64,000 nt of DNA, taken from NCBI RefSeq assembly GCF_018138715.1, contig NZ_JAGSHX010000001.1:1256036-1320035 (forward strand), read 5' to 3'. Shown piece after piece: positions 44,709-63,538 of this stretch. The position numbers and the translations under genes were made by a program. How positions within the stretch are numbered: position 1 is the first letter of the stretch; each line of letters begins with the position of its first letter. This DNA is from Streptomyces asiaticus (GTDB taxonomy: Bacteria > Actinomycetota > Actinomycetes > Streptomycetales > Streptomycetaceae). Under the pieces are notes generated by a model. It saw only the letters and a program-made list of their open reading frames with translations. It was not told the DNA's origin and made no database searches.

Positions 44709-45980
44709 TCAGTTGGCTGGTTGGGTCCGGCGGTGTGGTGTGTGCTGGCGAGATGTTTGGTGTTGTTTGCGGGTCGGGCCTGGGCGGGCCTGTGGACTGC
44801 GGGTTTCCTGCTCTGCGTTGGTCTTGTTGGTGTTGATCAGATCTGTTGGTTGGTTGGTCAGGTTCTTTGGGTGGCTGTTGTAGCGGCATAGGGGTGTGGG
44901 CCCGTGGATGCCGAGGGTGGTCATGAGGTGTTGTTGGTGGGGGTGGAGCTGGTCCCAGGCTCGTTGCTGGGTGCGGATCCACTTTGTGGTGTTGTTGGGG
45001 AAGGACTGAGCCGTGCTGTGGTGGGTGTGGGCTTGGTGCCGGCTGTGGTTCCAGGTGGCGCGCCAGGGTGGGTTCCACCACGGGTCGAGCGCGGCGAGTT
45101 GGTCGTGGTGGGGCCAGGGTTGGCCGGTTCGTTTCAGGTGGGTATATGCGGCTCGGCGTTGTTTGTACAGCCACCATCCGAGGGGGAAGCCGTCGTGTTC
45201 GGTGCGGTAGCTGGCTGAGGTGAGGTTGCCGTGCTGGGCGGCCCAGGACCGGGCGTAGGGCAGGCCGGCGGCGATGGACGAGGGTGAGTTCTTCAGACGG
45301 GGGCGGGCCGGACGGGATGGCTGGGGAGGTTTCGGCGATGGGGCCAGGGCGCGGGCGCGTTCAGTGGTCAGGCCCATGCCGGCCAGTAGCTGGCGCTGCT
45401 CATGGCCGAGGCTGTCGTAGCTGGCGCATTGCGTGAACAGCCATTTCGAGGTGACTGTGGGCAGCGCGTCGAGGTCGGCGGTGGTGTTCAGTGGCCGGTC
45501 GGCGGTGTGGGCGCGCGCGGTGTGCAGGGACTGCTGCCAGCGCATGTTCCAGGGCGGGTTCCACCACGGGTCAAGGGCGACGAGAGCGTGTGTACGGTCT
45601 TCCGGAAGCCGTCCGCGGGCGGCGCGTTTGCGTTGATGGCGGAGCCATCTGCCCAGTGGGTAGCCGTCGTGGTAGGTGTCTCCGGTGACTGTGAGGTGGC
45701 CGTGCTCCTGAGCCCAGGCGCGGGCGTGGGCGAGACCGGCCGAGAAGGCTGCGGCTTGGGGGATGCGGCGGGGGCGGGCGGTGCGGGCGCCTTCGGGGGT
45801 GAGGCCCAGGTCGGCGAGCAGTTGCTGCTGGCGGGGGTGGAGGTCGTCGTAGACGGTGCACTGGCTGTACAGCCACTGTCCGGTCCAGTCCGGTGTGCCG
45901 GGGAAGCCCTGGTTCGGGGTGAGGGCGTGGCCGGGGGTGAGCTGTGTGCGGGCGGCCTGGTAGCGGCGCTGCCATTTCAT
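44709..45980 (-). CDS. Helicase-associated (HA) repeat protein
   Basis: From ATG 45980 the frame encodes 423 residues with two full HA repeats: GLAHARAWAQEHGHLTV with ALDPWWNPPWNMRW, and GLPYARSWAAQHGNLTS with ALDPWWNPPWRATW. The linkers WLYSQCTVYDDLHPRQQQLL and WLFTQCASYDSLGHEQRQLL separate them, and a low-complexity basic tail follows. The frame is open upstream and encodes the end of another HA repeat (ALARIDPYWNPPWGMKWQ), but no start codon lies in it, so the gene is probably truncated or frameshifted at its 5' end. It follows the TniQ gene in the same direction. Confidence 0.75.
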   Translation of the reverse strand: MKWQRRYQAARTQLTPGHALTPNQGFPGTPDWTGQWLYSQCTVYDDLHPRQQQLLADLGLTPEGARTARPRRIPQAAAFSAGLAHARAWAQEHGHLTVTGDTYHDGYPLGRWLRHQRKRAARGRLPEDRTHALVALDPWWNPPWNMRWQQSLHTARAHTADRPLNTTADLDALPTVTSKWLFTQCASYDSLGHEQRQLLAGMGLTTERARALAPSPKPPQPSRPARPRLKNSPSSIAAGLPYARSWAAQHGNLTSASYRTEHDGFPLGWWLYKQRRAAYTHLKRTGQPWPHHDQLAALDPWWNPPWRATWNHSRHQAHTHHSTAQSFPNNTTKWIRTQQRAWDQLHPHQQHLMTTLGIHGPTPLCRYNSHPKNLTNQPTDLINTNKTNAEQETRSPQARPGPTRKQHQTSRQHTPHRRTQPAN

Positions 45981-46345
45981 GCCCCAGGGCGGGTTCCAGT
46001 ACGGGTCGATGCGGGCGAGGGCCTCTTCGTGTGGCCAGGGGGTGTCGAAGAGTTCGCGGTGGAGGTTGGCCTGGTGCCGTTGTGGCGTAGCTGTTGAGCC
46101 TGCTTATTGATCTTTGTTGTGACCTGCTGTTGCTCAGTTGTACTGGGCGGTATTTCTGTTCCGGCGGGGAGCACTGTGCGGCGTCGGGGCGTGGGCGACC
46201 GGTGGTGCGTGGGCTGAGCTGGCTGTTTGTGTTGCGCAGTCAGCTGAGTGTGGTGCCGATCTTTGCGCAGTGTGGTTGGCGCGCCTATAGGTACGGGAGT
46301 CGTTGGCCGTTGTGCTGGGGCCGGGGCGGCGACGGAGCGTGCGAT
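45981..46345. other. Gap between TniQ and HA-repeat genes
   Basis: The first ~125 bp upstream of 45980 still encode HA-repeat sequence in frame until a TAA near 46109. The remainder, up to the TniQ stop at 46346, has no recognisable gene and contains the second copy of GCGCCTATAGGTA (46281-46293). In the related locus at 31.5-38.7 kb TniQ and HA repeats form one protein, so this gap may be where a fused gene was broken. Confidence 0.5.
46281..46293 (+). repeat. Direct repeat GCGCCTATAGGTA, copy 2
   Basis: This copy is identical to 43580-43592. It lies between the end of the TniQ gene and the HA-repeat gene. See copy 1 for interpretation. Confidence 0.5.
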
Positions 46346-47260
46346 TCAGCGGGCGTGCAGGCGTTGCCAGAGCAGGTCGTGGTCGGCGGGTGCGAAGCGG
46401 GGCAGTTGGAGGCGGCCCGCGAGGTGGTGGAGGAAGGCGGTCTGCTGCGCGCGTGTCAGGGGGTGCGGGGGTAGGCGGTCAAGGGCCGCGGCGAGGGTGA
46501 GGGTTTCGGGGTAGGTGATCAGGTTCCGGCAGGTCAGAGCTGGGGAGGCCGGGCCTTGGGGGATGTGGGGGTTGGCATCGGTGAGGCGGTTCAGGCGTGT
46601 GTGCCAACGCGCGTGCAGGTGCTGATGGTGGTCGTACCAGCGCGTCGTGATCGTCGATGCCCAGCTCAGGGAGGCCGTGGTCGCACGGTGGCGGGCGCCT
46701 GGGCGGGTTCGGGTGAGCTCGGGGAGGGGGTGGATGTTGAGGGGGGCGGGGTGCCGGGGATCGCTGGAGGCCTGCTGGTGGCGGGTGCAGATGATGGCCC
46801 GGGGCAGGTCGGGCGCCGGGTGGATCCACGCGGGGACGGCCTTGTGCGGGCTGCGGTGCGCGGTGCAGGCGGTGCACGCCGCCAGCGGCTGGACCGCGGG
46901 CTGGAGGGGCTGCCAGCGGGCGAGGGCGGCGTGGGCCATGCCGATACTGGCGGGCGGGGGCTGGCGGGGCAGTGCGCGGTTGAGGTGTGCGGGCGGGATA
47001 CGGGTGAAGGCGGACAGGCGGCGGGTGGCTTCGGCGCTGAGGTGGATGTCGGTGGCGGGCGGGGCCGCAAAGGTGCCGGTGGCGGCGATGTGCAGGCCGT
47101 CGAGGAGCTGGTCGACGGTCAGCTGATAGGTGGCTGCGAGGCGGGTGAGGTATGAGGCTGTTGACTCGCGGGGCAGCGGCTGTACGCGCAGCGCGCCGGG
47201 CGGGGACGGCCACATCGTGCGGGCTCGCACCGCAGGGCTGCTCGGGGCGTGGGCGGTCAC
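46346..47260 (-). CDS. tniQ: TniQ-family target-selection protein
   Basis: GTG 47260 overlaps the upstream stop as GTGA. The 304-residue protein has the TniQ start (LRVQPLPRESTASYLTRLAA), a helical spacer and a zinc motif, C129-x2-C132 (ACTACTAHRS) with C158-x2-H161 (IICTRHQQ). A long helical end includes LTCRNLITYPETLTLAAAL, which parallels RVLARELVTYPETVALATLL of the TniQ-HA protein. TniQ/TnsD proteins choose the insertion site for Tn7- and Tn5053-like elements. It is the fifth gene of a run joined by 4-nt overlaps. Confidence 0.85.
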   Translation of the reverse strand: MTAHAPSSPAVRARTMWPSPPGALRVQPLPRESTASYLTRLAATYQLTVDQLLDGLHIAATGTFAAPPATDIHLSAEATRRLSAFTRIPPAHLNRALPRQPPPASIGMAHAALARWQPLQPAVQPLAACTACTAHRSPHKAVPAWIHPAPDLPRAIICTRHQQASSDPRHPAPLNIHPLPELTRTRPGARHRATTASLSWASTITTRWYDHHQHLHARWHTRLNRLTDANPHIPQGPASPALTCRNLITYPETLTLAAALDRLPPHPLTRAQQTAFLHHLAGRLQLPRFAPADHDLLWQRLHAR

Positions 47261-48294
47261 CGGCTGCTGGGCCGGGTACGGCGGCTCGCTGGGGCGCGGG
47301 GCCGGTAGTGCTCCTCGGCCAGGTGGTCCAGCGCGATGGTGTCCAGCAGCGGTTTGGTGATGCGCTCGCTGCCGTCCAGGATGGCCTCGATCGCGGCCTG
47401 GCGGAGCAGGCGGGACAGGCTGCCGATCCGTCCGGCGGTCCGCTCGTGCAGGTACGGCGCCAGTTTCGGCAGGCTGCCCGCCCGGTGTGCGTGCAGGTCG
47501 AGGGCCTGTTCCAGAGCGGCGATCAGCTCGCGGAAGGGCTCACGGCCGCCGGCGCGGGCGGGCAGCGCCCCGCAGTCGATCAGAGAGGCCCGCCCGGCCA
47601 GCTGCGCCCCGCGCACCCCGGTGAACACCGTGCTGGCGGTGACGTCGATGCCCGCGTACACGAACGTCGCGGCGACGCGTTCGGTGAGGTCCTTGAGCCA
47701 GTCGGCCGCCTCCGCGCCGGTGGACGTGCGGGGGTTGAGCCGGTGGATCTCGTCGATCAGCACCAGCTTTACCCCGGCCGCGGTGTAGGTGTGGCAGACG
47801 GCGGTCGTGATCTGCGCGGTGGTCATGCGGGTGGTGACGGGGATGCCGAGGTAGCGGGCGAACTCGCCGGCCAGGGTCTTGGCCGTGGCGCCCGGCGGAA
47901 CCAGTACGTAGGCGACGGGCACGCTGTGGTCGCGGGGGTGGGCGCGGCGGGTGTGGGCCAGGTGGCAGGTCCGGCCGACCTCGAGCAGGGCGGTGGTTTT
48001 GCCGGTGGTGGCCGGGCCGGTGACGATCAGGGACGGGCGGGCGGTGACGTGCTGGTGGCGGCCGAGGATCATCAGGGTGCGCACGCTGCGCGAGAGGTTC
48101 TCGATGGCGGGGGTGCGCACGGTGACGAACTGGGAGTGGTAGGCCAGGCGTTCCTCCAGCGAGCATGGTGGCTGGCCCGGCTGCGGGGGTGCGGGCGGGG
48201 CGGCGTGGGCGAAGTGGGCGAAGGCGTCGAAGGTGGTGACCGTTGCCGGGGATGTCTGTTCGGCGGCGGGTGTGGTGGTGTCGGGGCTGGTCAC
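47257..48294 (-). CDS. tniB: TnsC/TniB-type AAA ATPase
   Basis: GTG 48294 overlaps the transposase stop (GTGA). The 345-residue ATPase has Walker A GPATTGKT at 93-100, Walker B LVLIDEIH at 177-184, an arginine-rich sensor region and a long helical lid (TAGRIGSLSRLLRQAAIEAI). It is the size of Tn5053 TniB rather than the shorter MuB-like ATPases on the plus strand. It should link target choice by TniQ with the transposase. Intact. Confidence 0.9.
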   Translation of the reverse strand: MTSPDTTTPAAEQTSPATVTTFDAFAHFAHAAPPAPPQPGQPPCSLEERLAYHSQFVTVRTPAIENLSRSVRTLMILGRHQHVTARPSLIVTGPATTGKTTALLEVGRTCHLAHTRRAHPRDHSVPVAYVLVPPGATAKTLAGEFARYLGIPVTTRMTTAQITTAVCHTYTAAGVKLVLIDEIHRLNPRTSTGAEAADWLKDLTERVAATFVYAGIDVTASTVFTGVRGAQLAGRASLIDCGALPARAGGREPFRELIAALEQALDLHAHRAGSLPKLAPYLHERTAGRIGSLSRLLRQAAIEAILDGSERITKPLLDTIALDHLAEEHYRPRAPASRRTRPSSR

Positions 48295-50381
48295 CAGTGT
48301 TCGGCCTCCTTGAAGGCGTCGTACAGCGCGAATCGGCCTGTCGGCAAGGAGAGTTCATCGCTGTCGGCGGGCCTGCCGTCAGCGTCAGGGGCGTGCGCTT
48401 CGATGGCGTCGAGACTGTCCTGGGCCTGCGCGTGGTCATCCGCCGTCTGCGGTCCCGTCGCTCCCGCCGCTGCTGCTGCGACGGGAGCGGCGGGAGCGGG
48501 CTGGGGGCGAGCATGGCGCAGGACCTGGTCGGCGGCTTCGGCCAGGTCGGCTTCGTGCCGCTCGCGGCCTGCGCGCCGGTTGACGGCTGCGCGGATGTGG
48601 CGCCAGGCGGTCTCGCCCATCGGGGCGTGGACGTGGTCGCGGTGGATCCACGGGACCTCGTGCAGGCAGCCGTCGGGCAGACGGATGTAGATCTGCCGCA
48701 CATCGTGCGGGTTGAGGTGGACCTCCCACCTGCCGCCGGGCCCGGTGGGGGAGGGGCGGCCGCGGTGCTCATTCAGGCAGGCGTGGTCGTAGGTGCGGTA
48801 GTTGATGCGGATGCCGCGGCCGGTGACGGGGTGGAAGCGCACGGGCAGCAGTTCCAGGTAGTCGGCGCCGGTCAGCGGCAGCGGCACGTACCCGGACGCG
48901 CCCAGCAGCGCGCCCCACATCTCGTTCGGGGCCAGCGCCTTCTTCGGCAGGACCGGGTGGCGCAGCCCGTCGTGGGGGCGGTGCTGCCAGCACGCGGTGA
49001 CCCACTCGTCCAGCAGCTCCTGCAACTGGGCCACGGTGAAGCGTGCTTCGTCCTCCACCGACCCGCCGCGCTGCAGGACGTGGGAGCCGGTGTAGCCGGC
49101 GACGTGCTGTGCGAACAGCGTGTTGATACTTCCGAACGTCCGCTCGACGGCGCCCTTGGCGGCCGGGGAACGCGGCGGGGCGGGCTGCACGCTCACCCCG
49201 AGGGTTTCGCAGGCGGCCAGGAACGCGGCGGAGACGAAGACCCTGCCGCGGTCGATGACGATCGTCTCGGGCACCACCACAGGGCGTGCCGCCGCCTGCT
49301 CAAGCCGCGAGTCCAGGGCCAGCAGCCGGGTGTAGGGGACGGCGGCGTGGGCCAGGCGCAGCTGGCCGGGCCAGCCGGGCCTTGCGGGGTGGGGCACGGC
49401 CATCTCGGCGAGCAGCAGGGCCGCGTCCACGGCCCTCGTGCTCTCCTCGCGCAGCACGGCCGCCACCACCGACCGCGTGGCCACATCCAGGGCGATGGTC
49501 AGCTCCGGGCGTACCGGGCGGCCGTCCTCGCCGACAGCCATCACGTCCAGGCGGGTGGTGTCGACCTGGACCAGCTCGCCCGGCCGCAGCGCCACCGTCG
49601 GCCTGAGGGGCCGCGTCGGCGTAGTGGTGGCGGTGCGGGCCGGGCGGCCGGGATGCTCCAGCGGGTCGGCCAGTACCCGCGCCAGCCGGTTGAACGTCGA
49701 CGGCGTCGGCAGCGCCACCGCGCCCGGCCCGTGGGTGTCGGCCAGGATCTGTCCGGTCAGCTCCCTAAGCCCCTTCAGCGTGCCCCTGGAGCGGCCGCGC
49801 TGGCGGCGCAGCGCCTCCAGCACGGCGGCCACCACCCGCTCATCGGCCCGGCCCGTCGCGCGGGTCGGTTTGCGGCGGGGGACCAGTCCCATGAGGCCGC
49901 CCGCGTGGTAGCGGGCGCGCATGCGGCGCACGGTGGCGCGGCTGACCCGCGGCCAGCCCAACGCCGCGAGTTCGTCGGCCTTGGCCTGCTCCCGCTCGGC
50001 CATCGACCGCCGTTCAGGGTCGTATTCGGGCCGGGGTATCCCGCCGCTGCCCGGGCCGCCGGGCAGCCCGGTCTCGATCTCGCGGATGTGCCGCTGCCAG
50101 GCCAGAGCCCGCTCCCGCTCACGGTCGGGCACCGCCTCCAGCAGCCCCCACGGCGGTACCCCGGCGGTAGGGGAGTCGACTACCGCGAACGTGGGGTCGG
50201 CGAACAGGAACGAGGCGAGCACCGAGGCGGTCTGCCCGTGCTCGTCGACCAGCCGCACCGACGCCCCGGCCACGGCGGTCACCTGCCAGGCGCGGCCCTC
50301 GAACGTCACATACGCACCCAGCTTCACCTGCCGGACTGCGGGGGCGGCCACGGCCCGTGCCGTACGGCCGGGTGTGCTCAC
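48291..50381 (-). CDS. tniA: TnsB/TniA-type DDE transposase, catalytically intact
   Basis: The second of two tandem GTG codons (50381) overlaps the upstream TGA as GTGA. The 696-residue protein has an N-terminal beta/HTH region (VSRATVRRMRARYHAGGLMG) and an RNase H-like core with Asp274 (LVQVDTTRLDV), Asp377 (IVIDRGRVF) and Glu413 (KGAVERTFGSI). A Mu-type C-terminal domain follows (GIRINYRTYDHACL). It ends with an acidic tail, RFALYDAFKEAEHW, which the inactive paralogue also has as GFGVYDAGAEAEQW; the shared tail could be the ATPase-contacting peptide. Confidence 0.92.
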   Translation of the reverse strand: MSTPGRTARAVAAPAVRQVKLGAYVTFEGRAWQVTAVAGASVRLVDEHGQTASVLASFLFADPTFAVVDSPTAGVPPWGLLEAVPDRERERALAWQRHIREIETGLPGGPGSGGIPRPEYDPERRSMAEREQAKADELAALGWPRVSRATVRRMRARYHAGGLMGLVPRRKPTRATGRADERVVAAVLEALRRQRGRSRGTLKGLRELTGQILADTHGPGAVALPTPSTFNRLARVLADPLEHPGRPARTATTTPTRPLRPTVALRPGELVQVDTTRLDVMAVGEDGRPVRPELTIALDVATRSVVAAVLREESTRAVDAALLLAEMAVPHPARPGWPGQLRLAHAAVPYTRLLALDSRLEQAAARPVVVPETIVIDRGRVFVSAAFLAACETLGVSVQPAPPRSPAAKGAVERTFGSINTLFAQHVAGYTGSHVLQRGGSVEDEARFTVAQLQELLDEWVTACWQHRPHDGLRHPVLPKKALAPNEMWGALLGASGYVPLPLTGADYLELLPVRFHPVTGRGIRINYRTYDHACLNEHRGRPSPTGPGGRWEVHLNPHDVRQIYIRLPDGCLHEVPWIHRDHVHAPMGETAWRHIRAAVNRRAGRERHEADLAEAADQVLRHARPQPAPAAPVAAAAAGATGPQTADDHAQAQDSLDAIEAHAPDADGRPADSDELSLPTGRFALYDAFKEAEHW

Positions 50382-52360
50382 CACTGCTCGGCCTCCGCCC
50401 CGGCGTCATACACCCCGAACCCGCTGGACTTTGGGGTCACTTGGCCACGGGCGTCGTCCCCCCCGGCATCGTGCACCACGTCACCGACGATCCCGTGCAC
50501 AGCCATGAAGTCTCCAACGCGCCCTGCCTCACCGAAACAGCTGGCCCTCTCGCTGCCCGGCTGCGCGCCCGCGCCGCGGCGCGCGAGGACGCTGCCGGTT
50601 CGGCGCCGGACCGTCTCGTCGAACGGGCGCAGGGTGTGCTCGCCCTGCGTCCACGGGACCGCATGGAGCAGGCCGTCGGGCAGCCGGATGAAGACCTGCC
50701 GCAGATCGTAGGGGTGGTGGTGGACCTCCCACCGCTGGCCGCGGCCGCGGTGTTCGTCCAGGCACGCATCGTCGTAGCGGCGCCCGCCCAGCCGGATGCC
50801 CGATTCGGTGAGCGCGCACCGGCGTGCCGGGAGCAGTTCGCCGTAGTGCTGTCCGCCCAGCGGCAGCGGCACGTTCCCGGCCGCGCCCAGCAGCACCTCC
50901 CACATCTCCTGCGGGGCCAGTGACGCCCGGGGCAGCAGCGGATGGCGCAGCTGCTCCTGGGGGCGGTGGTGCCAGCAGGCGGTGATCCATTCGTCCAGCA
51001 GGTCCTGCAGCTGCAGGAGGCTCCAGTACGCCCCGTCCTCTTCGGTGTCTTCGTTCTCTTCTGTTACGGCGGCAGGCGGCCGGGCCGCGGCGGCGTGCCG
51101 TGCGAACAGTCCGGCGAGAACCCCCAGCGTGCGCGCCGCGCCGCCCCGGGCGTCCGCCGCCCGGGGCGGCACCGTCTCCAGGCTGACGCCCAGGCTCTCG
51201 CACACGGCCAGCACAGCGGAGGTGACGGCGGCCGGGGACCGGTCGACGACGAGCGTCTCGGGCACGGCCGCCGGATGCGCCGCGGCGGCTTCGATCCGTG
51301 CGGGCAGGGACATCAGCCGCCCGGGCGGCCCGCCCGCATAGGCCTGCTCCAGCAGGGCCGGCCAGCCCGGGCGCAGCGGCCTGGGCACGGCCATCTCGGC
51401 CAGCAGCACCGACAACTGAACCGGCTGGGCCTGTAACGGGTGTAGCACGGCGGCCAGCACACAGCCGCTCGCCCCGTCCAGCGCGGCCGTCACCGCCACC
51501 TCCACCACACCCCCGTCCTCGCCCACCGCCTCAAGACCCAGGCGGGCGGTGGCGATGTGGACCCGCTCGGCGGGCCGCAACACAGCAGGCGGGCCACCGC
51601 AACGGGCCGGGCCGGTGGCGGTGCGCGCCGCACTGCCCGGCGGCTCGGCCGGATCCGCCAGCGCTTTCACCAGCCGGTACAGCGACGAGCGGGCGGGCAG
51701 CTTCACCCGGTGCGGCCCGTAGGTGTCCGCCACGATCTGCTCAGCCAACTCGATGACCTGCCGGGTGGTGGTCTTCCTGCGGCCGCGGCGTCGGCGCAGG
51801 GCCTCCAGCACAGCGGCCACCACCCGCTCGTCAGTACGCCCGGTAGTGGACGGGGCGCGCAGGTGGCGCTTGTCGACCAGCCCCCACAGCCCCTGCCGCC
51901 GGTAGACCAGCCGCATCCGCTGCACCGTGGTCCGGCTGACCCGGGCCCAGCCCAGCGCCGTGAGCTCACGCGCCTTGGCCCCTTCCCGCTCGGCAAGCGT
52001 GAAGCGCTGCGGGTCGTACTCCGGCCGGGGCACACCGCACTTTTCCGGGGCGTCAGGCAGTCCGGTTTCGACCTCGCGGATGTGCCGCTGCCAGGCCAGG
52101 GCACGCTCCTGAGCGGCCAGCGGCACCGCTTCCCACAGGGCCGGGGCAGGAGGCGCCACGGCGGCCATGCCGATCACCGAGAAGCCAGGCGCGGCCACCA
52201 GATAGGCAGCCACGACGCAGGCGGTGGCCCCGTCGTCGGCAACCAGGTGCACCCGGCCGCCGACCAGGGCGGCCACCTGCCAGGTGCGGTCTTCGAACGT
52301 GACCTGTGCGCCCACCTCAAGATGCCGCCCACCGGGGGCGGTTGCACCGTTCCTGCTCAC
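50378..52360 (-). CDS. TnsB/TniA-like paralogue with lost catalytic residues
   Basis: GTG 52360 overlaps the upstream stop. The 660-residue protein aligns with its downstream neighbour over nearly the full length (WQRHIREVETGLP, RVSRTTVQRMRLVYRRQGLW, DERVVAAVLEALRR, LLDEWITACWHHRP). At the first catalytic position VDTTRL is replaced by IATARL (Ala270), and at the third KGAVERT is replaced by RGGAART (Ala409). Only the middle Asp373 remains. The frame is open throughout and the C-terminal tail is kept, so it is a maintained non-catalytic subunit rather than obvious debris. Confidence 0.88.
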   Translation of the reverse strand: MSRNGATAPGGRHLEVGAQVTFEDRTWQVAALVGGRVHLVADDGATACVVAAYLVAAPGFSVIGMAAVAPPAPALWEAVPLAAQERALAWQRHIREVETGLPDAPEKCGVPRPEYDPQRFTLAEREGAKARELTALGWARVSRTTVQRMRLVYRRQGLWGLVDKRHLRAPSTTGRTDERVVAAVLEALRRRRGRRKTTTRQVIELAEQIVADTYGPHRVKLPARSSLYRLVKALADPAEPPGSAARTATGPARCGGPPAVLRPAERVHIATARLGLEAVGEDGGVVEVAVTAALDGASGCVLAAVLHPLQAQPVQLSVLLAEMAVPRPLRPGWPALLEQAYAGGPPGRLMSLPARIEAAAAHPAAVPETLVVDRSPAAVTSAVLAVCESLGVSLETVPPRAADARGGAARTLGVLAGLFARHAAAARPPAAVTEENEDTEEDGAYWSLLQLQDLLDEWITACWHHRPQEQLRHPLLPRASLAPQEMWEVLLGAAGNVPLPLGGQHYGELLPARRCALTESGIRLGGRRYDDACLDEHRGRGQRWEVHHHPYDLRQVFIRLPDGLLHAVPWTQGEHTLRPFDETVRRRTGSVLARRGAGAQPGSERASCFGEAGRVGDFMAVHGIVGDVVHDAGGDDARGQVTPKSSGFGVYDAGAEAEQW

Positions 52361-53244
52361 CTCGCGTGCTGCTCCTGCCGCTTGTCGCCTGCGGCCGGGG
52401 CGGGGGAGACACGGGTGTGCTCGCCCAACGGCCGCATCAGGTCTGCGGTCAGCCGCCCACTCCACAGCGCGTGGTAGACCACCGGCAGCGCCGTGAGGAC
52501 CTCGCCCGCCGCCGCGGCCCCGGCCATCAGCGGCCGCGGGGCGGCGAACGCCTCGAGCACCGCCTGCTCCAGACCGCCTGCGTCACGGTGGCGGGGGTGG
52601 CGGTAGCCGGCCAGCCACCGCACATTCGCCGCCACCACCTTCTCCGGCGGCACCAGGCGCCGGTAGGTGAACCCCACCGCCTCACACGCCGCAGCAAGCA
52701 CCGCGGCCGCCCGCGCGGCACGCTCCCCGGCGGGCTCGGACGTGGCGGGACAGTCGGCGAGCAGGGCGCGCCCGTCGGCGTAACGGGCGAACAGCTGGGG
52801 CACCCACGTCAAAACCCGCCCGCTGTCCGGATCACGCCAGATCAGCCGCACCGGCCGCGCCGACAGCCCCACCACCTGCGGATCGCGGTCCAGGACCATC
52901 AGCTGCGTGCACATCGCCTGCGAGCCGTGCATCACATGCCCGGCCGTGGTGGCCGACCACCACCAGCCCGGCCCCCACCTGCGCCCGGGCACCACTGGGA
53001 AGGCCGTCACCGGCTGGAGCTGCTCGAACCGGACGGCCACGGCGGCTTCGACCCAGCGGCGTTGTACGAGTGTGCCGTCCGCCCCGGCGAACTCCGCCTC
53101 CACCGCCCCTGATTCCGGCACTCGGCACGCCCTGCCCGCGACGGCAGATAAGCCGTCCTGGCTGCTGTCGATGATCACGCACTCCACACAACGCCATACC
53201 GGCCATGGCGCGCAGGCGAACCGACCGGTAACCGCAACTGCCAT
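52357..53244 (-). CDS. TnsA-like endonuclease-fold protein, acidic residues missing
   Basis: The C-terminal two thirds match actinobacterial TnsA-like subunits: GPGWWWSATTAGHVMHGS, LMVLDRDPQVVGLSARPVRL, FARYADGRALLADCPA, and ANVRWLAGYRHPRH with a final LPVVYHALWSGRLTADL. In family members as I remember them, the HVxxES-W-E and the TPDYFA segment supply the acidic residues. Here these read GSQAMC and VPQLFA, so the nuclease is probably inactive. The start is uncertain: ATG 53244 is used, and a longer frame reaches 53376. Its TGA overlaps the next gene start. Confidence 0.7.
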   Translation of the reverse strand: MAVAVTGRFACAPWPVWRCVECVIIDSSQDGLSAVAGRACRVPESGAVEAEFAGADGTLVQRRWVEAAVAVRFEQLQPVTAFPVVPGRRWGPGWWWSATTAGHVMHGSQAMCTQLMVLDRDPQVVGLSARPVRLIWRDPDSGRVLTWVPQLFARYADGRALLADCPATSEPAGERAARAAAVLAAACEAVGFTYRRLVPPEKVVAANVRWLAGYRHPRHRDAGGLEQAVLEAFAAPRPLMAGAAAAGEVLTALPVVYHALWSGRLTADLMRPLGEHTRVSPAPAAGDKRQEQHAR

Positions 53245-53418
53245 TCCACACAGGCCGGTTGCTTTGCGCGGGGGACAGGATGCCGCCTGGGGCGTCCCGG
53301 TGTCAGTGCAGATCTCTGCACTTTCCCACCCAATCGCCCGCCGTGTCGCGGCGGGCGGACCGTGGCGCGGGTCCACCCGGGCCGCAGGAGTGGGCGGGCG
53401 CCCGGACCGGTTCCGCCG

Positions 53419-53739
53419 CTACCCCAGAGACGACAGTACCCATCCCGAGTCGTCCTCGCCGGAACCGAACCTGATCAAGGCGCCGGACGGCATCGCCGCA
53501 CCGCGCGCGAGCGTGTCGACGAAGGCATCCGCGAGCGCGTTGACCTGCTCGCGCCCAGCACCCTGGCCGTCGTCGCAGACACCGGAGTCGAGCCACAGAT
53601 GGTCGCGGTGTCCCGTGACCTTCAGCATGATCTTGAACGTCTCCCAGTCGTAGGGCGGATCGCTCACGGCGACGCCCACGATGGTGTCGCCGCGCACCAG
53701 GTCGTCCCCGACGCGTACCCACACATCGCGTTTGGCCAC
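53419..53739 (-). CDS. Small hypothetical protein, 106 residues
   Basis: GTG 53739 has GGGAGG about nine bases upstream; an in-frame GTG at 53748 is too close to that site. The protein opens with a beta-rich stretch (KRDVWVRVGDDLVRGDTIVG), continues YDWETFKIMLKVTGHRDHLW and ends DSGWVLSSLG. It lies upstream of the TnsA-like gene in the same direction, about 170 bp from the longest possible TnsA start. No family is recognised; it may belong to the element. Confidence 0.6.
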   Translation of the reverse strand: MAKRDVWVRVGDDLVRGDTIVGVAVSDPPYDWETFKIMLKVTGHRDHLWLDSGVCDDGQGAGREQVNALADAFVDTLARGAAMPSGALIRFGSGEDDSGWVLSSLG

Positions 53740-53896
53740 TGCCCCCACCTCCCCCGCCCGGCCACATCAGCAGCCGAGCGTAGCCGTCTTGAACCCCCTC
53801 CGGCTCGAGCCGGAGAGCCGGACTTGCGAGAAGGGCTCAGCCTGCGGCCTTCCTGCCGGCCCTCTGCGGCCCGGGGCCTGGCGGCGGCGGCCGGGG

Positions 53897-55123
53897 TCAG
53901 GGATGGCGGAAGCCGCGGTCGGGGTCGCGGGCCTGGCCCGGGCGGAAGGGATCGAACCAGTCCGCGGCGGCCAGGTTGGCGAGTCCGAGGGCCTGGTTGA
54001 TCTCGTTGCCGCTGTCCTCGATCCCGTCCAGGGAGGCGTCGAAGAGCATCAGTACGTCGTGGTCCTCGAACAGGACGGTCGAGCACCAGTCCCAGTCGAA
54101 GTCGCGGCGGTCCTCACCCAGACCCTCCACTGCTTCCGCCACCAGGCGCGGCCGGTTCCGCGTCAGCGCTCTGGCCCGGTCGATGCCCAGGTGCAGGGCC
54201 ATCTCCTCGCCGGTGCAGCCCGGGCGGACGGTGCCATTCTTGGCGAGGTCGGCGGCCAGGTCGTCGAAACAGCGGGCCATCTGCCGCCGCCACTGCTGGT
54301 CCTGGTGAAAGGTGATCGGCGGCAGCGAGCCAAGGACACGGCCCTCGCCGCGCCCAAGAGGCGCATCGCCCACGGCGGCGATGTCCAGCCAGATCTGCTC
54401 AGACAGCTCCTCGAGCGCCACCCGCAGCACCGCAGCCGTCCGCGCGGTGAGTTCCTCGTCCTCCTCGCCGTCCTCGTCCCAGCCGTCACCCTCGCTGTCT
54501 TCTTCGTCCCACGCCGTCGGCTGGCCGTGGCGGGCGAGGGAAAGCAGACGGCTGCGCACGCGCTGCGCGGCCTCTTCGGGAGCAGCCGGGGCGTTGTCGA
54601 TGATCTGAAGTTCGTCGGAGAACTCCTGGGCGCTCAGCAGCGCGCCGGCCTCGGCAAGCAGGGCGGAACCCGCACCCAGGCAGGCGTTCTGGGCGGGCAG
54701 GACCACGGCGAAGTAGTTGTCCGTCAGCCGGTCGATGACGGCGGCCACCACCCCGGCGACGATCAGCGGGTCAGCGAAGGCCTCCTCCAGCTGCAGCCCG
54801 TCGACGACGAGGACGCTGGAGGCCGACTCGATGAACTCCTCGAACTCGTAGGTGAACCGGCCCTCCTCGTCCAGGAGCTGGGTGGCCACCAGAGCCGGGA
54901 AGGACTGTTCGTCGGCCATCCGCTCGCGCAGGTTGTCGGACTTCCAGTACAGGCCGCGTACGGCCGTGAGGCTGCCCACCTGCGTGTCGGCCACGGTGAT
55001 GCGCACCTCCCAGGTCTGCACCCCCTGCGCGGCAGGGTCCAGCAGCTGGTGAGTGTGGTGGAAGGTGAGCGCCAGCCGGGCAAGGTCCGCCCCCGCTGAC
55101 GCCGGGCCCGGTCGACTGCTCAA
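53897..55123 (-). CDS. Acidic hypothetical protein, about 408 residues
   Basis: TTG 55123 is chosen because GAGGGAG lies five bases upstream and because the sequence before it is arginine-rich and unlike a protein. The product is soluble: VRITVADTQVGSLTAVRG near the start, FEEFIESASSVLVVDGLQLE in the middle, and a strongly acidic linker (DEEDSEGDGWDEDGEEDEE). The second half ends LNLAAADWFDPFRPGQ-like. I do not recognise a family. Its position between TniQ and TnsA genes, all colinear, hints at a link with the transposition or telomere module. Confidence 0.65.
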   Translation of the reverse strand: MSSRPGPASAGADLARLALTFHHTHQLLDPAAQGVQTWEVRITVADTQVGSLTAVRGLYWKSDNLRERMADEQSFPALVATQLLDEEGRFTYEFEEFIESASSVLVVDGLQLEEAFADPLIVAGVVAAVIDRLTDNYFAVVLPAQNACLGAGSALLAEAGALLSAQEFSDELQIIDNAPAAPEEAAQRVRSRLLSLARHGQPTAWDEEDSEGDGWDEDGEEDEELTARTAAVLRVALEELSEQIWLDIAAVGDAPLGRGEGRVLGSLPPITFHQDQQWRRQMARCFDDLAADLAKNGTVRPGCTGEEMALHLGIDRARALTRNRPRLVAEAVEGLGEDRRDFDWDWCSTVLFEDHDVLMLFDASLDGIEDSGNEINQALGLANLAAADWFDPFRPGQARDPDRGFRHP

Positions 55124-55319
55124 CGTGCTCCCTCGGTGCCTGTCCTCGCCCCGCCGCCTGCCGAGGCTCCGCAACAGCGTAGTGGCCAGGCGCCGCCGGT
55201 CTTCCCGAAACGGCGCCGTACGCGCATCCGGGCCCGGGAGGCGAAAAACAGCCCGAGCCCCTGCGGGCCGGGCTGCGCCGTGCAGTGGGCAGAGCCCGCC
55301 ACACCTGCCGCCGAGCACG

Positions 55320-56720
55320 TCAGCCGTGGTCCTTGCCCACGGCCACGATCTCCGCCAGCTCGTGGGCGGACAGGCGGGCCCATCCGGCGACCTCCTCCAG
55401 CGCCACCCCGGCGGTGACGGCCGCGGTGGCGGTGTGCACAAGGGCCTTCTCGATCAGGGCGGCACTTTCACTGAGGTGCTCCAGCAGGGTGCGGGCCACT
55501 TCGGCGGTGGTGCCGCTGTGCACGCCGCGCAGCTCCACCAGCTGCTCGCCGGCCTCCTTGACCAACTGGGTGATGTGGAGACGGTGTTCGGCGGACACGG
55601 CGGCCCGCCACCGGGTCGCCGAGCCACCCGAATGCGCCTCGGCGGTCATGACGCGCAAGCCTCCGGCCATGGTGGCGGGCTGCTGTTCGCGCCGCAGCCG
55701 CCACGGATCGTCCCTCCACCCGGGCGGCCCGCCTTCACCGCGCCGCCGGCGGATGACAGCGCCCATCCAGGCGAGTAGAGGCCCGCCGTAGTCCACTGCC
55801 GACAGCGGCCCCAGCCAGTTGCGTCCCACCCGCTCGCCCAGCCGGCGGCAGAACGCCCCGTCAGCGGACAGCGGCCGCGGCCGCCCGGCACCGCTGTCCC
55901 TCCACACCAGCTCGGCCATGGCCGGATCCAGCAGAGCGTCGGCCACGGCCACCACCTCCGGGAAGACGACCGCGTCCCGGCCCACGATCCGCCACCGCTT
56001 AAGATCCGTTCCCGCGTTGCCGCCCGCTACCCGGTGCAGGCGCTGCGGCCAGATCTCCTCCTGATGCCAGTGCAGGGCTTCCTCCCACCACCGGGCCACG
56101 ACCGCGTGCGCTAGGCGAAGACCTCCCCGGGGTCCGCCGCGGCCCGCACCGCACGCCGCGCCACGCCCGTCCACCGCCGCTGTGCGGCCACCACCTCGGG
56201 ACACCGCGCAGGTCGAGGTGTTCCAGCGGCTGGTCGGCGTCCGCGTCCAGCAGCCACCGCCCGTGCCGCCCGCACACCCGCTGCCGGCGCGGCACATACC
56301 GCACCGCCCGCAGCGCCTGCCCGGTGCGCCGCGCGGTGCACGACCGGCAGGCGAACGCCGCTTCTCCCGCCACCGCGCTCGCCGCCTGCCAGCGCCCCTG
56401 CGCCAGGCCGGCCTCCCGCCCTTGCTGATCTTGGGGTCGTCCACGGTGAAGGCGGGCAGAGCCCGCGCCAGCACCGCCGGTTCCACCCCGCACAGCTCGG
56501 CGAGCACAGCCCGCCCGGCCTCGTTGAGGACGACCTCCGCGTCGGCCCGCATGCCGCCGCCGTCCATCCGGGCGGGGGAGTTGCGGCAGGTCCACAGCCG
56601 CAGCACACCGGCGGCAGGCAGACCGTAGCGGGCTGCGGCCCGGTTGATCAGTGACGAGGTCAGCTCCCCGGCCAGTGGCGCTGTCCGTAACACCCCTGCT
56701 GCCACAGCTCTCCCCGGCAT
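55320..56720 (-). pseudogene. Third TniQ-family gene, frameshifted
   Basis: ATG 56720 opens with TniQ-like sequence (RTAPLAGELTSSLINRAAAR). Near 56420 the frame shifts; the next frame gives GRWQAASAVAGEAAFACRSC and VCGRHGRWLLDADADQPL, the zinc motif of the domain. Two further shifts near 56210 and 56115 return to the first frame, which continues RLAHAVVARWWEEALHWHQE to the stop at 55320. The total length fits a TniQ protein of about 465 residues. It directly follows tpg, 41 bp away. The three shifts within 300 bp may be real or sequencing error. Confidence 0.65.
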
Positions 56721-56761
56721 CTGTTCCTGGTCTCCTGCTACTCCCGGCGCCTCTGACCGGG

Positions 56762-57321
56762 TTACAGCTCGAACTCGAGGGCGACGAGGTCTTTGAGTTC
56801 GACTTCGAGGCCGTGGGCGCGGCGGCCGTTGTCGCGGAAGTAGACCTCGCCCAGTGCCTCGGCCGCGACCTGACGGAGGTCATCCTCGTCGAGACCGGCT
56901 TCCTGTGCTTCGAGGAGGCGGGCGGCGTGGCGGGGCGGCAGGGCGAGGGTGAGGTGGCGCACGCGGGCCTGGTCGGTGCTGCCGGGGGCGGCGGTGTAGC
57001 CGAACCGGGCCTGGACATCGATCATGATGCCGTTCGTGGTGGCCGCGGCCTGCTTCGCCCTGGCCCTGATCTGCGGCTGCCAGCGGGCGCGGACCTCGCG
57101 TTCGAGGCGGTCGGCGAGCTTCCGGCCGGGGGGTTTTGATCTGGTTCTTCACGTACCGCTCGACGGTGCGCTGACTGATACCGAGCAGTTCGGCGACGCG
57201 CCGGGTGCTGCGCTGGTGCTGCTTGACCAGGTACCGCATCCGCGCCCCGGCGGACTTGGGAACGGGACGCGTGAACGCGCCCTGCACCGCCTTGTCGAGT
57301 TCTTCTGCGACCGTGACCATC
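56762..57321 (-). pseudogene. tpg: Telomere terminal protein Tpg, one frameshift
   Basis: ATG 57321 begins MVTVAEELDKAVQGAFTRPV, continues VPKSAGARMRYLVKQHQRST and has a HTH (RRVAELLGISQRTVERYVKN). After a shift near 57125 it continues KLADRLEREVRARWQPQ, then IDVQARFGYTAAPGST, then EALGEVYFRDNGRRAHGLEV. This is the Tpg family, which primes end patching and stays covalently bound to the 5' ends of linear Streptomyces replicons. The shift is in a run of six C; five restore the frame. Full length would be about 186 residues, as expected (184-185). It follows tap by 14 bp. Confidence 0.85.
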
Positions 57322-57335
57322 GACCCGTGTCCTCT

Positions 57336-59572
57336 TATTCCCCGGTGTCCTTGGCGGTGACCTCGCCGGTCTTGATGTAGCGGGCGAGGTTGGCGGTCTT
57401 GCCGTCGGTGCCGAGCTGCTCGAGCACGTCCGCGCCCCACAGGACGCTCTGGGTGCCCTCGTGCTTGACCATCCCGGCGAGACCCCCAGCCGGAACGAGC
57501 CCGGCACGGTCTTGCCGTCGGCTCCGTAGGGCAGGACGTCCAGCGGGCTGGGCCCGTTGGCGGCGTACACGGCGCAGTCCGACAGGACCGCGACCGGGTA
57601 GCGGCCGGTGGCCGCCGCCAGGTTGAGCATCTTGCGGTGCATGTTGATCCGGGCCCGGGAGATGACGGTCGCGCGGATGTCCGGGCGCCAGGTGGGGCGG
57701 GCGAGGGCGGGCCAGGGCTGCCCTGGCTTCCAGCCGCCGCGCGGGCCTTCTCCTGCAGCTTGCCGATGCTGCCCTTGACGGTCATCTTGATGGCGTCCAC
57801 CACGATGGCCAGCTCCGCATCCCGCTGCCTGTAGCCGTCCATCGCTTCCAGGAACTGGTGCGGGGCGAGCTTCTCGCCCACGGCGAGGTCCGCCATGGTG
57901 TCCACGTAGGCGTTGCGCAGCCGCTTGTACCAGCCGTCCAGGAACCGGCCGCACTCCGGGCGCACCCATGCCTCAAGCGGGGCGACGTCGTAACCGAGCT
58001 CGACGGCGTACGCCACGGTGGGGGTGGCGTACCAGGCCGGACCCTCCGGGCGTTCGCCGGTCGGCGTGAAGGGGCTGGGCAGCAGATCGCCGTCGAGCTG
58101 GTGCCACTGCTTGCCGACCTTCACCCGGGACAGGTCGACGTGGGAGAGGTCGACCAGCCAGGAACCGGGCACCGCTGGGTCGAAGACCGGGCTGGCGGTG
58201 TGCGCGGGGGGCGATGCCAGGCCGACGACCGCGCCGTTGGCGGCAGCACCGAACGCCAGGTTCACGTCGATGCCGACCAGGTAGCGCTGCAATGCACTCG
58301 GCGTCGGTCAGATCCCGCGCCCAGTCGTAGGCCTCCTCGAACAGCCTCTCGCCGGGGCCGCGCACGTGGAACCGGGGCAGGTCGCCAGGACGGGGTGTCC
58401 GTCGGTCGCCTCGCACGGCGCCGGGTCCATCGGCTGCGTGCCAGCGAGCCGGACCGGTGCTCGGAATGCCGCCTGCCCTCCTCGTCCGGCTCGCTCGCGC
58501 GGGTCGGCGGGTTGAGCGCGGTCATCAGCTCCAGCCCTGTCACGGCCGTGGAACCGACCGGCGTCATCACCCGCATCGCGTACACGCCCAGCACCCGGCC
58601 AGCTCCGCGGGCTCGAGCTGAGCTGCGTGGCCCCAGGCGCGGTCGTCGAGGGCGTGCCAGGAAGGGATGCACAGCTGCACGCACTGCCGACGGCCGTCCT
58701 GGGCAGGGCGGTAGATCCGCGCCCACGGCCCCAGCCCCCGCTTGGTCAGCTGCCAGTCGGCGCGCTGGAGCTGCTTGAGGACCTTGTGCCCCTCCGGGAG
58801 CCGCCCGGCGAGCCGCTCGGACTCCGACAGCGCGGCGGGCAGGCTGTAGCGCTCGCACGCCGCCTTGGTGAGCACCAGCAGCGGGTCGGCGTCCTTTCCC
58901 GAGCCGTGCAGCTTCTCCGCCCCCAGCCGTGCCTCCGCCAGCGTCACTCCACCAGCGCGGGGAGTGACTTGGCGGGCACGTCCAGATCAGGCCGCCGATG
59001 CCGTAGCCGGTCACCTGCCGGTCGGCGTCGGCGTCGAGGACGAGCAGCGGACCGTGCGCGTACGGGCTGCCGGGCGCGGGCGTGCGGGCCGCAGCGGTCT
59101 TCGGCGCGCCCGGGCGGGGTGATCCTTGCGGCGGCCGGGCGGCCCGCGCTGGACGCGGCGCGGCGGCTGGTGCGTGAGCGGCGGCGGGCACAGCGGATGG
59201 GGCGGTGCCGGGCGTGGGGGCGGCCGCGGCCTCAACAGCCCCGGCCGCGGGCCTGGTTCGCGCCGTGGACGCCGGGCCGCTGGACGTCTTCGGTGTCGGG
59301 GCGTCCTTCTGCGGGGCGGCGGTGCTCTCGGCGGCGGGGTAGAGCTGTGCGAGCTGCCGCAGCAGGCGCGCGTACGGCTCCCGCTGCGGCGGCCGCGGCT
59401 CGGTCTTGCCCGACTCCCAGCCGCTGACCGTCGCCCGCCGCACGTTAAGGGCGGCGGCCACCTCGTCCAGGGTGAGCGCGTGCGTCTGGCGCAGGCGCTT
59501 GCGCTCGGCCGGCGGCGGCAGCGGGGACCGGGACGCGACCAGCGCGTCGACCGCATCGAACAGCTCGGACAT
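57336..59572 (-). pseudogene. tap: Telomere-associated protein Tap, several frameshifts
   Basis: ATG 59572 (GGAGG six bases upstream) starts with MSELFDAVDALVASRSPLPP and an XRE-type HTH (LTLDEVAAALNVRRATVSGW). Successive frames then give MTLAEARLGAEKLHGSGKDA, VYAMRVMTPVGSTAVTGLEL, QRYLVGIDVNLAFGAAANGA, RATVISRARINMHRKMLNLA and MVKHEGTQSVLWGADVLEQL, to TAA 57336-57338. Shifts lie near 58970, 58605, 58430, 58290, 57715 and 57480. Tap binds the telomere overhang and recruits Tpg. The summed length (about 745 codons) equals a normal Tap, so no large part is missing. Confidence 0.82.
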
Positions 59573-59588
59573 GGAACACCTCCACCCC

Positions 59589-59669
59589 CACCCTACCCCA
59601 TGAATCGTACATAGCCCGTACGAAATCCGTACATTGCGCGTACGATTCGCGTACGTTGGTGGTAGGGTG
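59589..59669. promoter_or_regulatory. Five CGTAC boxes at 11-bp spacing inside a 9-bp inverted repeat
   Basis: CGTAC occurs at 59606, 59617, 59628, 59639 and 59650, exactly 11 bp apart. The array is flanked by CACCCTACC (59589-59597) and its inverse GGTAGGGTG (59661-59669), and the centre of that pair falls on the middle box. The spacing of about one helical turn puts all boxes on one DNA face. It lies between divergent tap (59572) and the helicase gene (59755), so it may be a shared operator, or an iteron-type replication site. Confidence 0.85.
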
Positions 59670-59754
59670 CCGGATTGAAGGTGTTCTCTTCAGCGGCCTT
59701 GCCGCCCTTCCGGCCCGGCCGCCGCTCGCTTTGGACCGATCGAGGAAGAGCTTC

Positions 59755-62169
59755 ATGACTGTGGTCGAACTGCCGCGGCCCGGCCGTCCCGAGAAGGCGC
59801 GGCTCTTCCCCGATCAGGTCAAGGCCGTCAAGCGGCTGGTACGGCACCTGCGCCGCGCCGGGACGCGGGGACTGTTCGTGTCGGCGACGGGGACCGGCAA
59901 GACACTGGTCTCGATCCGGGTGGCGGACGCACTCGGCGCGCGGCTGGTGCTGTTCGTGGTGCCCTCTCTGGACCTGGCGGCACAGACGGCACTGGCCTGG
60001 CGCCGGGACGGCCACGGCGAGCACATGGTGATCGTCTCCTCCCTGGACGCCAGAGGCCGGGACGACCTGGTCGGGGCGCGCGTCACGTCGACCACTGACC
60101 CGCACGCACTGGGCGGGCTGATGTCGGCGGTGGGGGAGGGCGAGGACCAGATTCCGGCGCTGACGGTGATCTGCACCTACGACTCCCTGAACAAGATCGA
60201 ACAAACCCAGAACACGAAGTACGCGGTCCCGCCGTTCGACCTCGCGGTCATGGACGAGGCGCACCGGATCGCAGGCCGCGCGGACAAGAAGTGGGCCATC
60301 GTCAACGACGCGAAGCGCATCCACGCGGACCGCCGCCTCTACATGACCCCACTCCGAGGATTTTCGCTGCGCCGGAGCTGGCCGAGTCCGCCGACACCAC
60401 CCGCCCGCGCCGCCGCCACCGCGGCGGCGCGGAGGCGGACGCGTTCGCCAACTCCATGGACAACGAGGCCGTGTACGGCAAGAAGGTCTTCGAGTACCCG
60501 CTCGCGCAGGCAGTCGCTGACGGCCGGGCTGCGGACTACCGCATCGTGATCCCCACCCTCACCGACGCCGACCTGCGCCGCCGCCTGAACCTGCCCGCCC
60601 CCGGCACAACCCGGCCCGGCGAGGATCAGGACACCGCGCTGCGCACCACCGCCCTGCACCTCGCAGTCCTGCGCGCCATGACCGAACACCGTCTGAAGAA
60701 GGTGCTGGTCTACTTCAACCTCGTCTCCGACGCCCGCCGCTTCCGCCCCCCACACCTTGCGCCAACTGGCCCGGACCGACCCCGGCCTGTGCCCGGACAT
60801 CACCCCCGAGCTGTTCTTCGCCCACGGCGAGCACACCCCCGCCCAGCGCGCCGACACCTTCGCCGCCTTCGCCGCCGCCGACTGCGCGATCCTCGCCAAC
60901 TCCCGCCTCATCGCCGAAGGCGTCGACATCCCCAGCGTGGACGCCATCGTCTTCGCCGACCCCACCCGCAGCGTCATCCGCTGCGTCCAGGCCCTCGGCC
61001 GCGCCCTGCGCCTGGACGTCTCCGGCAAGACCGCCAGCCTCATCGTCCCCGTCTACGTCCCGCCCGGCGCCGACGCCAAGAACATCCTCGGCACCGCCTA
61101 CGAACCCGTCTGGGCGATCGCCTGCGCACTGGCCAGCCACGACCACCGCATCCTCGAACGCCTCCCCGACAAGGCCAACCGCCTCCCACGCGAGACCAGC
61201 GACGTCATCGAACGCCGCTGGCACTTCGACTTCACCGTCCACCCCGAGCGCATCGCCCAAGCGATGGACCTGGCCTCCTTCGACCCCCGCGACCCGGCCG
61301 TCTCCCGCTCCCGCCGCCTCGGACTAGCCGCCGCCCAGGCCTACCACGACGAATATGGTCACCTCGACGTCCCCGCCGACCACGTGGACCCCACCGGCTA
61401 CACCCTGGGCACCTTCATCACCACCATGCGCGACGCCCGGAGGGCCGGCCGCCTGGAAGCCGCCTGGATCGCCGAACTCGACGCGCTCGGCATGATCTGG
61501 GACAAGCACGACGCCGCCTGGCGCTCCCGCCTCGCCGCCGCATCCGACTACCACCGCACCCACGGCCACCTCGCCGCCCCCGCCACCACCCCCGTCGGCG
61601 CCTGGCTCGCCGAACAACGCCACCTCGCCGCCAAGAACCAGCTCGACCCCGCCCGCGACGACGCCCTGACCGCCCTCGCCCCCGACTGGCGCCTGCCCCA
61701 CGGCGCGGACTGGCACCGCAAATACCACCTGCTGCGCACCCATCTCGCCGACGGCGCCGACCCAGCCACGCTCACCCCCGACACCCAGCTCGGCAGCGTG
61801 AAGATCGGCTCCTGGCTGCACCGCCAGCTCACCACCTGGCACACCCTCCACCCCGGCCAGCAGCACCTGATGACCTCCCTCGGTCTGACCCCCGACAGCA
61901 ACCCGCTCACCCCCGCCCGCCGCACCCGCCGCACCTTCACACAGACCGTCCAGCTCCTGGAACTCTTTCTCCACCGCGAAGGCCGCGCCCCTGCCGCCCG
62001 CGAGACGATCCGCGTTGACGGCGACACGGTCAGGATCGGCGCCTGGCTCGCCAAGGCCCGCACCAAGCACCGCGCCGGCCAGCTCCCCGACGACGAGGCA
62101 CGCCTGGTCGCCGCCCTTTTCGACGGTGACTGGACAACCGAAAACGCCATCCCGGCCGCCCTGGCGTAG
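59755..62169 (+). pseudogene. DEAH helicase with helicase-associated repeats, two frameshifts
   Basis: ATG 59755 follows GAGGAAGAG. The superfamily-2 helicase core has Walker A SATGTGKT at 43-50 and DEAH-type MDEAHR. After a missing base near 60350 it continues TPRIFAAPELAES and KKVFEYPLAQAVADGRAADY. After an extra C near 60735 it reads RTDPGLCPDITPELFFAHGE and QALGRALRLD (motif VI). The C-terminal third contains HA repeats (AYHDEYGHLDVPADH, YHRTHGHLAAP) and ends at 62169. Helicases of this type are found near Streptomyces telomeres (ttrA-like). Summed length is about 804 codons. Confidence 0.8.
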
Positions 62170-62215
62170 ATGCCGCTCCAGAACCACACACCTGGGCCCC
62201 ACGCTGCGCCCGTCG

Positions 62216-62543: not shown

Positions 62544-62727
62544 AGGGTACTGTGCGCAGGTCAGACCGAGTGCACCGACGTCAGGCAAGTTAGGTAAGTA
62601 CGGCTTCGGGAAGGCTGTTCGAGGCGGCCGAAGCCACCCGGCCTTGATCTGTCGCGCGAGAGCGACGGTCGCTTGGTATCGACTGCCTCCACCGACTCCG
62701 CGGCCCCGTGTCTCTCCCCGGCGGTCG

Positions 62728-63309: not shown

Positions 63310-63416
63310 TGGGCTGATCCCTCCTTCTCGATGGCGGCCCGCGTCCAGCTTCGCCGCCACCCACTTGGCCGCCGAGGCGACGGTCCCGAAACGGCTTCGG
63401 GCCCCCAAGCATCCAC

Positions 63417-63518: not shown

Positions 63519-63538
63519 GCGGCGGCTGGAGGTTCACC

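Follow-up and report, generated by a model that had tools for sequence, protein, structure and literature searches.

A putative Tn7-like telomeric transposon of Streptomyces in which a live TnsB is accompanied by a catalytically dead paralogue and a TnsA-like protein without its acidic residues

The window, the whole stretch of 64,000 nucleotides analysed here, is the terminal 64 kb of contig C1 (1,320,035 bases) of genome G000, which comprises 11.88 Mb in six contigs. A Tn7-like element runs from position 46081 as far as 64000, where the contig stops, or further; it includes tap, tpg and a helicase gene together with a minus-strand operon, its reading frames open, for a TnsA-like protein, a dead and a live TnsB, TnsC/TniB and TniQ. 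The features are as follows, some scores having been obtained on the copy of the block on contig C3 of the same genome.

44709..45980, minus strand: helicase-like gene, apparent insertion flank just outside the transposon end (32% identity to the element's helicase over 172 aa)
46081..46345, minus strand: transposon end, 265 bp without an assigned gene, left of tniQ, with three ACTGMGCAA direct repeats
46346..47260, minus strand: TniQ (TniQ1; PF06527, 1.4e-08)
47257..48294, minus strand: TnsC/TniB AAA+ regulator (PF05621, 4.4e-16)
48291..50384, minus strand: live TnsB, DDE intact (D275, D378, E414; rve, 2e-08; aligned to the solved TnsB 9y7b)
50378..52360 (maximal ORF to 52465), minus strand: dead TnsB paralogue, A/D/A at the DDE positions, GTGA start near 52360
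52357..53376, minus strand: TnsA-like protein with M155 and Q194 (339-aa frame; NF033179, 270.8 bits; true start uncertain)
53897..55441, minus strand: open frame with relatives in several such elements (no NCBIfam or Pfam match at the limits used)
55320..56720, minus strand: TniQ2, second TniQ-like protein (TniQ, 0.00016, under the curated cut-off; open in L014 at 8611-10014)
56762..57320, minus strand: tpg, telomere terminal protein (NF047541, 284.5 bits on the C3 copy, cut-off 90; open in L014 at 8012-8569)
57330..59572, minus strand: tap, telomere-associated protein (NF047542, 1069.3 bits on the C3 copy, cut-off 600; open in L014 at 5754-7997)
59656..62169, plus strand: helicase with helicase-associated domains (HA 3.4e-30 and ResIII 9e-23 on the C3 copy; open in L014 at 3298-5670)

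A first-pass annotation had recognised the core of this unit, at 48291..53244, as genes joined by GTGA overlaps, and GTGA is indeed present at all four junctions of the TnsA-to-TniQ operon; the extent given there was too short, however, and the telomeric setting was missed. The operon combines a DDE transposase (TnsB), an AAA+ TnsC and TniQ, as expected of a Tn7-like element. Telomere maintenance genes are aboard, with Tap and Tpg both above their curated cut-offs, and a location at the replicon end is indicated by the end of contig C1 (topology not given) together with the plasmid-record statistics given below. Contigs C1 and C3 both stop within the element, and the telomere of G000 lies outside the contigs. 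Right of 56113 (56113-63899) the C1 copy differs from the C3 copy by about 20 small indels that disturb the tap, tpg, TniQ2 and helicase frames; given that the same frames are full in the C3 copy, these indels near the contig end are read as assembly errors. In the flank fetched upstream of the operon, tap/tpg occur in only 6 of 17 loci. The element is most likely a Tn7-like telomeric transposon with one TnsB-recognised end and the telomere on the other side. Inward of it, two minus-strand frames of the window, one TniQ2-like (36997-38466, 33%) and one helicase-like (31516-32418, 36%), are possibly remnants of older telomeric elements, and an inverted pair of about 700 bp, 81% identical, lies at 21379-22076 and 30018-30714.

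The two TnsB proteins of the window, which the initial reading had described as adjacent paralogues, share 53% identity over 590 aa. The triad of the live protein, originally given as D274, D377 and E413 by counting from the second GTG, is D275, D378 and E414 from the first; D378 and E414 align well to 9y7b, and the D275 stretch is in register with it at only 3.3 bits. This comparison thus bears out the positions given in the first-pass annotation, weakly so for the first Asp. The dead protein reads IATARL and RGGAART at catalytic positions 1 and 3, the two alanines already reported there, and keeps the middle Asp; with A, D, A in place of DDE it lacks the triad of a DDE transposase. Its frame is open, and the C-terminal tail is kept in both proteins.

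A protein search with the dead TnsB returned at least 433 proteins at E<=1e-20, and the named homologues among the matches listed are almost all from Streptomyces. The best 120 and the window pair together gave an alignment of 122 rows, two of which, P0001 and P0080, are apparently the window proteins a second time. In it the DDE triad was common to 61 rows, the live ones, and the other 61 were non-DDE. The first D is replaced in these by A (56 rows), S (4) or T (1); the E is replaced in 56, gapped in 2 and kept in 3 (P0053-P0055); and the middle D is retained in most, not all. The same residue losses in tens of homologues are more than chance would produce. All 61 non-DDE rows group in one clade with a FastTree support of 1.0, a result that holds with the catalytic columns removed; the sister group of this clade is made up of live proteins, among them the live TnsB of the dead-bearing elements. 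The TnsB of telomere-adjacent elements with a single TnsB branches outside this dead/live duplication.

The same pair recurs in other genomes. Dead adjoins live TnsB in 16 of 17 loci. Twelve of the 17 have an open dead frame, counting two pairs of loci that each come from a single genome (L019/L020 and L024/L025), and in 5 the frame is split or partial (L021, L026, L028, L029 and L033). Homologues of the inactive gene are thus neither absent elsewhere nor full of stops, either of which would have told against the first-pass annotation. In the S. blattellae copies (L024/L025, 13883-19192), about 5.3 kb of inserted DNA splits tnsC. The dead-TnsB type of element is uncommon: among 61 genus-level genomes, 5 gave a match at E<=1e-160 and two, G000 and G030, the high-scoring dead type. 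Nor is the dead TnsB generally required, given that it is absent from all 12 fetched telomere-adjacent loci with a single TnsB (L034/L060, L039-L045, L048-L050 and L059). Further, at the NBC_01483 plasmid end (L037, 10400-15300) a natural deletion has reduced the dead TnsB to its first ~120 residues, with TnsA and the live TnsB remaining. In the literature searched, with most subscription journals and the full Hsieh et al. 2025 outside its scope, neither a dead or duplicated TnsB nor a naturally inactive TnsA was found, and PMC8743542 and PMC7205883 nowhere mention transposons, transposase, tniQ or anything termed mobile.

What the dead protein has retained bears on what it may do. Of 60 dead proteins, 51 have a hook-like tail motif, resembling the TnsC-binding hook, as do 56 of 60 live ones. 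By domain, dead-live similarity is highest in the DNA-binding NTD1 (0.63), with lower values in NTD2 (0.56) and the N-terminal beta domain (0.44), and in the C-terminal core the dead proteins are 0.73 identical to one another. The predicted model of the dead TnsB is middling (pLDDT 64, pTM 0.37), and in the fold search it came closest to TnsB structures (7pik, E 8e-17); with TM-scores near 0.2 and large rmsd, the model supports the domain content of the protein and not the arrangement of its domains. DNA-binding domains and a tail would be equally useful to a competitor, and the dead TnsB may be a regulator, a dominant-negative brake that competes with the live TnsB for end sites and TnsC and that is not required structurally; its absence from the telomere-adjacent relatives and its loss in L037 are consistent with such a role. 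However, its gene lies inside the operon in overlapping frames, so that it is presumably made together with the live TnsB, and its C-terminal core stays conserved. Neither point is decisive, and a brake seems somewhat unlikely. A telomere- or second-site-specific DNA-binding adaptor, pairing telomere-side sequence with the true end, is a more doubtful proposition. Such a partner would complete a Tn7-type complex at an end that stands alone, and the larger dead-live divergence of NTD2 and the N-terminal beta domain than of NTD1 is in keeping with it, yet the telomere side gave no match in the end-motif search, and the peak of dead-live similarity in the DNA-binding domain argues for shared sites.

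The dN/dS of the inactive copy, raised in the first-pass annotation as a check, points to purifying selection that is detectable though relaxed. In ten pairs compared by the Nei-Gojobori method, with frames taken stop-to-stop so that whole-gene values take in some upstream sequence, w is 0.46-0.72 for the dead TnsB and 0.24-0.37 for the live one, with 0.21-0.40 for TnsA and 0.12-0.37 for TnsC. Within the dead TnsB, w is 0.28-0.94 in the N domain, 0.37-0.67 in the catalytic domain (0-0.22 in the live protein), 0.35-0.68 in the C core and 0.43-2.50 in the linker and tail, where it exceeds 1 in 3 of 10 pairs. The frames for these tests were chosen open, and the pairs share sequences and are non-independent. 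In a random-redistribution control the neutral nonsynonymous fraction for the dead gene is 0.74-0.82 against 0.54-0.67 observed, the observed value being the lower in 9 of 9 pairs, with between 0 and 4 of the 300 shuffles attaining it. Some 0.9 to 6.0 stops would be expected and none is present, in frames preselected as open. Purifying selection on the dead TnsB is supported, relaxed as it is, the contrast with the live copy being greatest at what was once the active site. That an old duplicate TnsB and an unneeded TnsA nuclease are simply drifting without function is accordingly very unlikely: the shuffled expectation is undercut in every pair and no stops interrupt the open frames taken, the 61 rows fall in one clade, and w for TnsA is low. 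Such decay could nevertheless claim the relaxation itself, which falls chiefly on the catalytic domain, as well as the tail segments with w above 1, some broken frames and the L037 deletion. Across 10 loci, the distances among dead TnsB proteins are correlated with those among live ones (r = 0.80). Despite this, strict co-evolution of the two was rejected, being contradicted by L019/L023, where live TnsB and TnsC are nearly identical and TnsA and dead TnsB are divergent, that is, modules have been exchanged between elements.

The TnsA-like protein, likewise reported from the first as lacking its acidic residues, exceeds the curated cut-off of NF033179 (TnsA_like_Actin; 110 bits), and its predicted fold matches TnsA in a fold search, from which the rows ranked under the TnsA matches (common winged-helix and nuclease folds) were left out; a PDB sequence search with the TnsA alignment gave no TnsA match. 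M and Q stand where a relative in the same genome has E and D, and judged by these residues the protein is not the catalytically competent TnsA of a cut-and-paste Tn7-like element. Among the best 120 of 594 homologues the E is lost in 119 of 119 that could be scored and the D in 120 of 120, one of which has E there. Telomere-adjacent elements that have just one TnsB, a live one branching outside the TnsB duplication, carry dead-type TnsA as well; the TnsA and TnsB losses therefore appear to be separate steps, and that of TnsA looks older. A second telomere-adjacent group, at plasmid record ends (L041-L045), has lost the acidic residues in another background (GSxxMR; Q, H or D at the Asp position), which suggests parallel loss.

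The location of these elements is strongly skewed. Among plasmid records of at least 100 kb, the dead TnsA type lies within 30 kb of a record end in 27 of 28 and the ordinary TnsA type in 12 of 42 (Fisher p 5e-9, a value that overstates the case given that related strains are among the records and topology was checked for some only); the second group does so in 8 of 8. TnsA motifs were read in 7 of 33 first-group, 5 of 9 second-group and 2 of 47 ordinary records, the rest being typed by identity. The sole exception among the 28 is SNP1, whose palindrome centre lies inside its record.

The terminus at 46081 reads ...AGCTACGCCACA outward and TGTGGCG inward, and the putative TnsB repeats, ACTGMGCAA in direct orientation, start at 46138, 46240 and 46271. 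The broader pattern ACTGNGCAR, defined by eye from these ends, has three occurrences in window 46081-64000, all at the transposon end beside tniQ1. Its presence at ends is by construction, as it was drawn from them; the informative observation is that a search by end motifs found no such cluster towards the telomere in the G000 element, a search that a diverged second end would escape. At other loci there are 2-3 matches at the end where any were found there, one of these only in some, and scattered single matches elsewhere; L018 has the end, yet no ACTGNGCAR match there. Of 20 loci scanned, 13 have the end motif, and the sequences that follow it outside are 13 different ones; the single-TnsB loci L034, L039, L040, L048, L049, L059 and L060, whose ends are not defined, gave no match to it. 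In L017, L030 and L031, outside this 20-locus scan, the sequence past tniQ1 does not align with that of other loci. The TGT...ACA ends with repeated TnsB sites on both sides that mark a Tn7-like element are thus represented by one recognised end, with a slight chance of a diverged second one. At some loci the sequence beyond the end carries genes of subtelomeric type: helicase-like ones in the window, in L027 and in L028, tap/tpg-like ones in L018 and a tpg-like one in L023. In pNL15-2K-Lin (L036, 20394-21521), TnsA-like and TnsB-like fragments lie directly past the end, the element having apparently inserted into an older relative.

The same end bounds duplicated arms. A BLAST match between C1 and C3 runs from window 46080 to 64000 (17.9 kb, 0 mismatches, 21 gaps) and halts at the transposon end, from which the stop of identity differs, by chance, by one base; on C3 (117,989 bases) the block lies near the left contig end. 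Plasmid SNP1 (L038) has two inverted copies, identical over 15,608 bp in the compared stretch and different past the end, and its palindrome centre near record position 951,698, by self-comparison, is the midpoint of its two transposon ends. Similarly, the paired copies of genome G030 are identical over 14,311 bp of the compared stretch up to the transposon end. Paired identical copies therefore diverge exactly at this end in three genomes (G000, SNP1 and G030). An ordinary two-ended transposon near a replicon end, its second end beyond the sequence read, gains some room from the unsequenced G000 telomere and from the C1 and C3 contigs that stop inside the element; it is nonetheless highly improbable, as the sequence of SNP1 extends beyond the palindrome centre and that arm showed no second cluster of repeats, and as the strong terminal bias of the plasmid records and the tap/tpg cargo speak against it. 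A two-armed paired-end insertion was also considered and rejected: it predicts a 5-bp duplication in the outer flanks, and by eye none of the three pairs (G000 C1/C3, SNP1, G030) matches.

The reading we favour, at about even confidence, is one-ended, copy-type transposition that transplants a telomeric arm, with the dead TnsB as a dedicated non-cutting subunit. With one end only, the normal two-ended reaction is unavailable, and tap/tpg aboard, the lone end and arms identical up to that end favour arm transplantation. Arms bounded by the transposon end are predicted by one-ended copy transposition, although homologous recombination following a single insertion could likewise have produced shared arms. 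In such a reaction TnsC and TniQ would bring the complex to the target, where the live TnsB would join the element's single 3' end. The inactive TnsA would make no 5' cut, so that the donor arm would be retained, and replication from the junction through the element to the telomere might then add a new arm to the target replicon. The dead TnsB would take DNA-bound positions held in two-ended relatives by structural or second-end protomers, would be tethered to TnsC through its tail, and could complete the complex without a second cut. We think that the telomeric setting explains the dead subunits. The heteromeric transpososome with a non-cutting subunit envisaged in the first-pass annotation fits as far as the conserved non-cutting paralogue beside an active TnsB is concerned; the dead TnsA, for its part, occurs elsewhere without the TnsB duplication. 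More tentatively, and short of an even chance, the whole may be a naturally heteromeric DDE transpososome: the non-cutting TnsB would come from a gene of its own, TnsA would be a silent scaffold, and one join at one end would transplant a telomere, building new arms and terminal inverted repeats. This would offer a possible answer to a long-standing question in Streptomyces, namely how linear replicons gain, exchange and duplicate their ends.

Several known systems invite comparison. Tn7-like telomeric transposons of linear bacterial replicons, with the telomere as one boundary, have reportedly been described by Hsieh et al. in 2025 (Science, eadp1973), and the present element is likewise Tn7-like and telomere-linked. 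It may depart from those in its tandem catalytically dead TnsB paralogue and in the TnsA losses. Telomeric transposons are an already published kind, and the dead TnsB appears to be new within the literature searched. The C6 element of the same genome, a two-ended Tn7-like element of 7331 bp present in two copies, shares a TnsA-like protein, TnsB and TnsC and has TGT/ACA ends, flanked by 5-bp target duplications (ggtgc and gccca, by eye). Unlike the telomeric element it has two ends, a TnsA with E and D and a single live TnsB, and no tap/tpg match was found within the fetched stretch. Elements of the Tn5053 and V-K CAST types also have two ends, and differ in that TnsA is missing altogether. 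They are alike in making no TnsA 5' cut, such that replication is expected; elements without TnsA form cointegrates by replication, according to PMC11406308. In S. rimosus, a 6.7-kb TnsA-like/Mu-transposase segment moved from chromosome to plasmid, as reported in PMC9045324, and such TnsA-like relatives may therefore be mobile. Finally, Tn7 and type I-F CAST share the TnsA and TnsB folds, a hook-type tail and the division of TnsB into catalytic and structural protomers: TnsB tetramers comprise two of each (PMC9527255, PMC13228271), TnsA is resolved on the catalytic protomers (PMC13228271) and the TnsB tail is a TnsC-binding hook (PMC9371665). There one TnsB gene gives both kinds of protomer and TnsA cuts, whereas here the protomer roles are perhaps split between two genes, which would make them testable by genetics.
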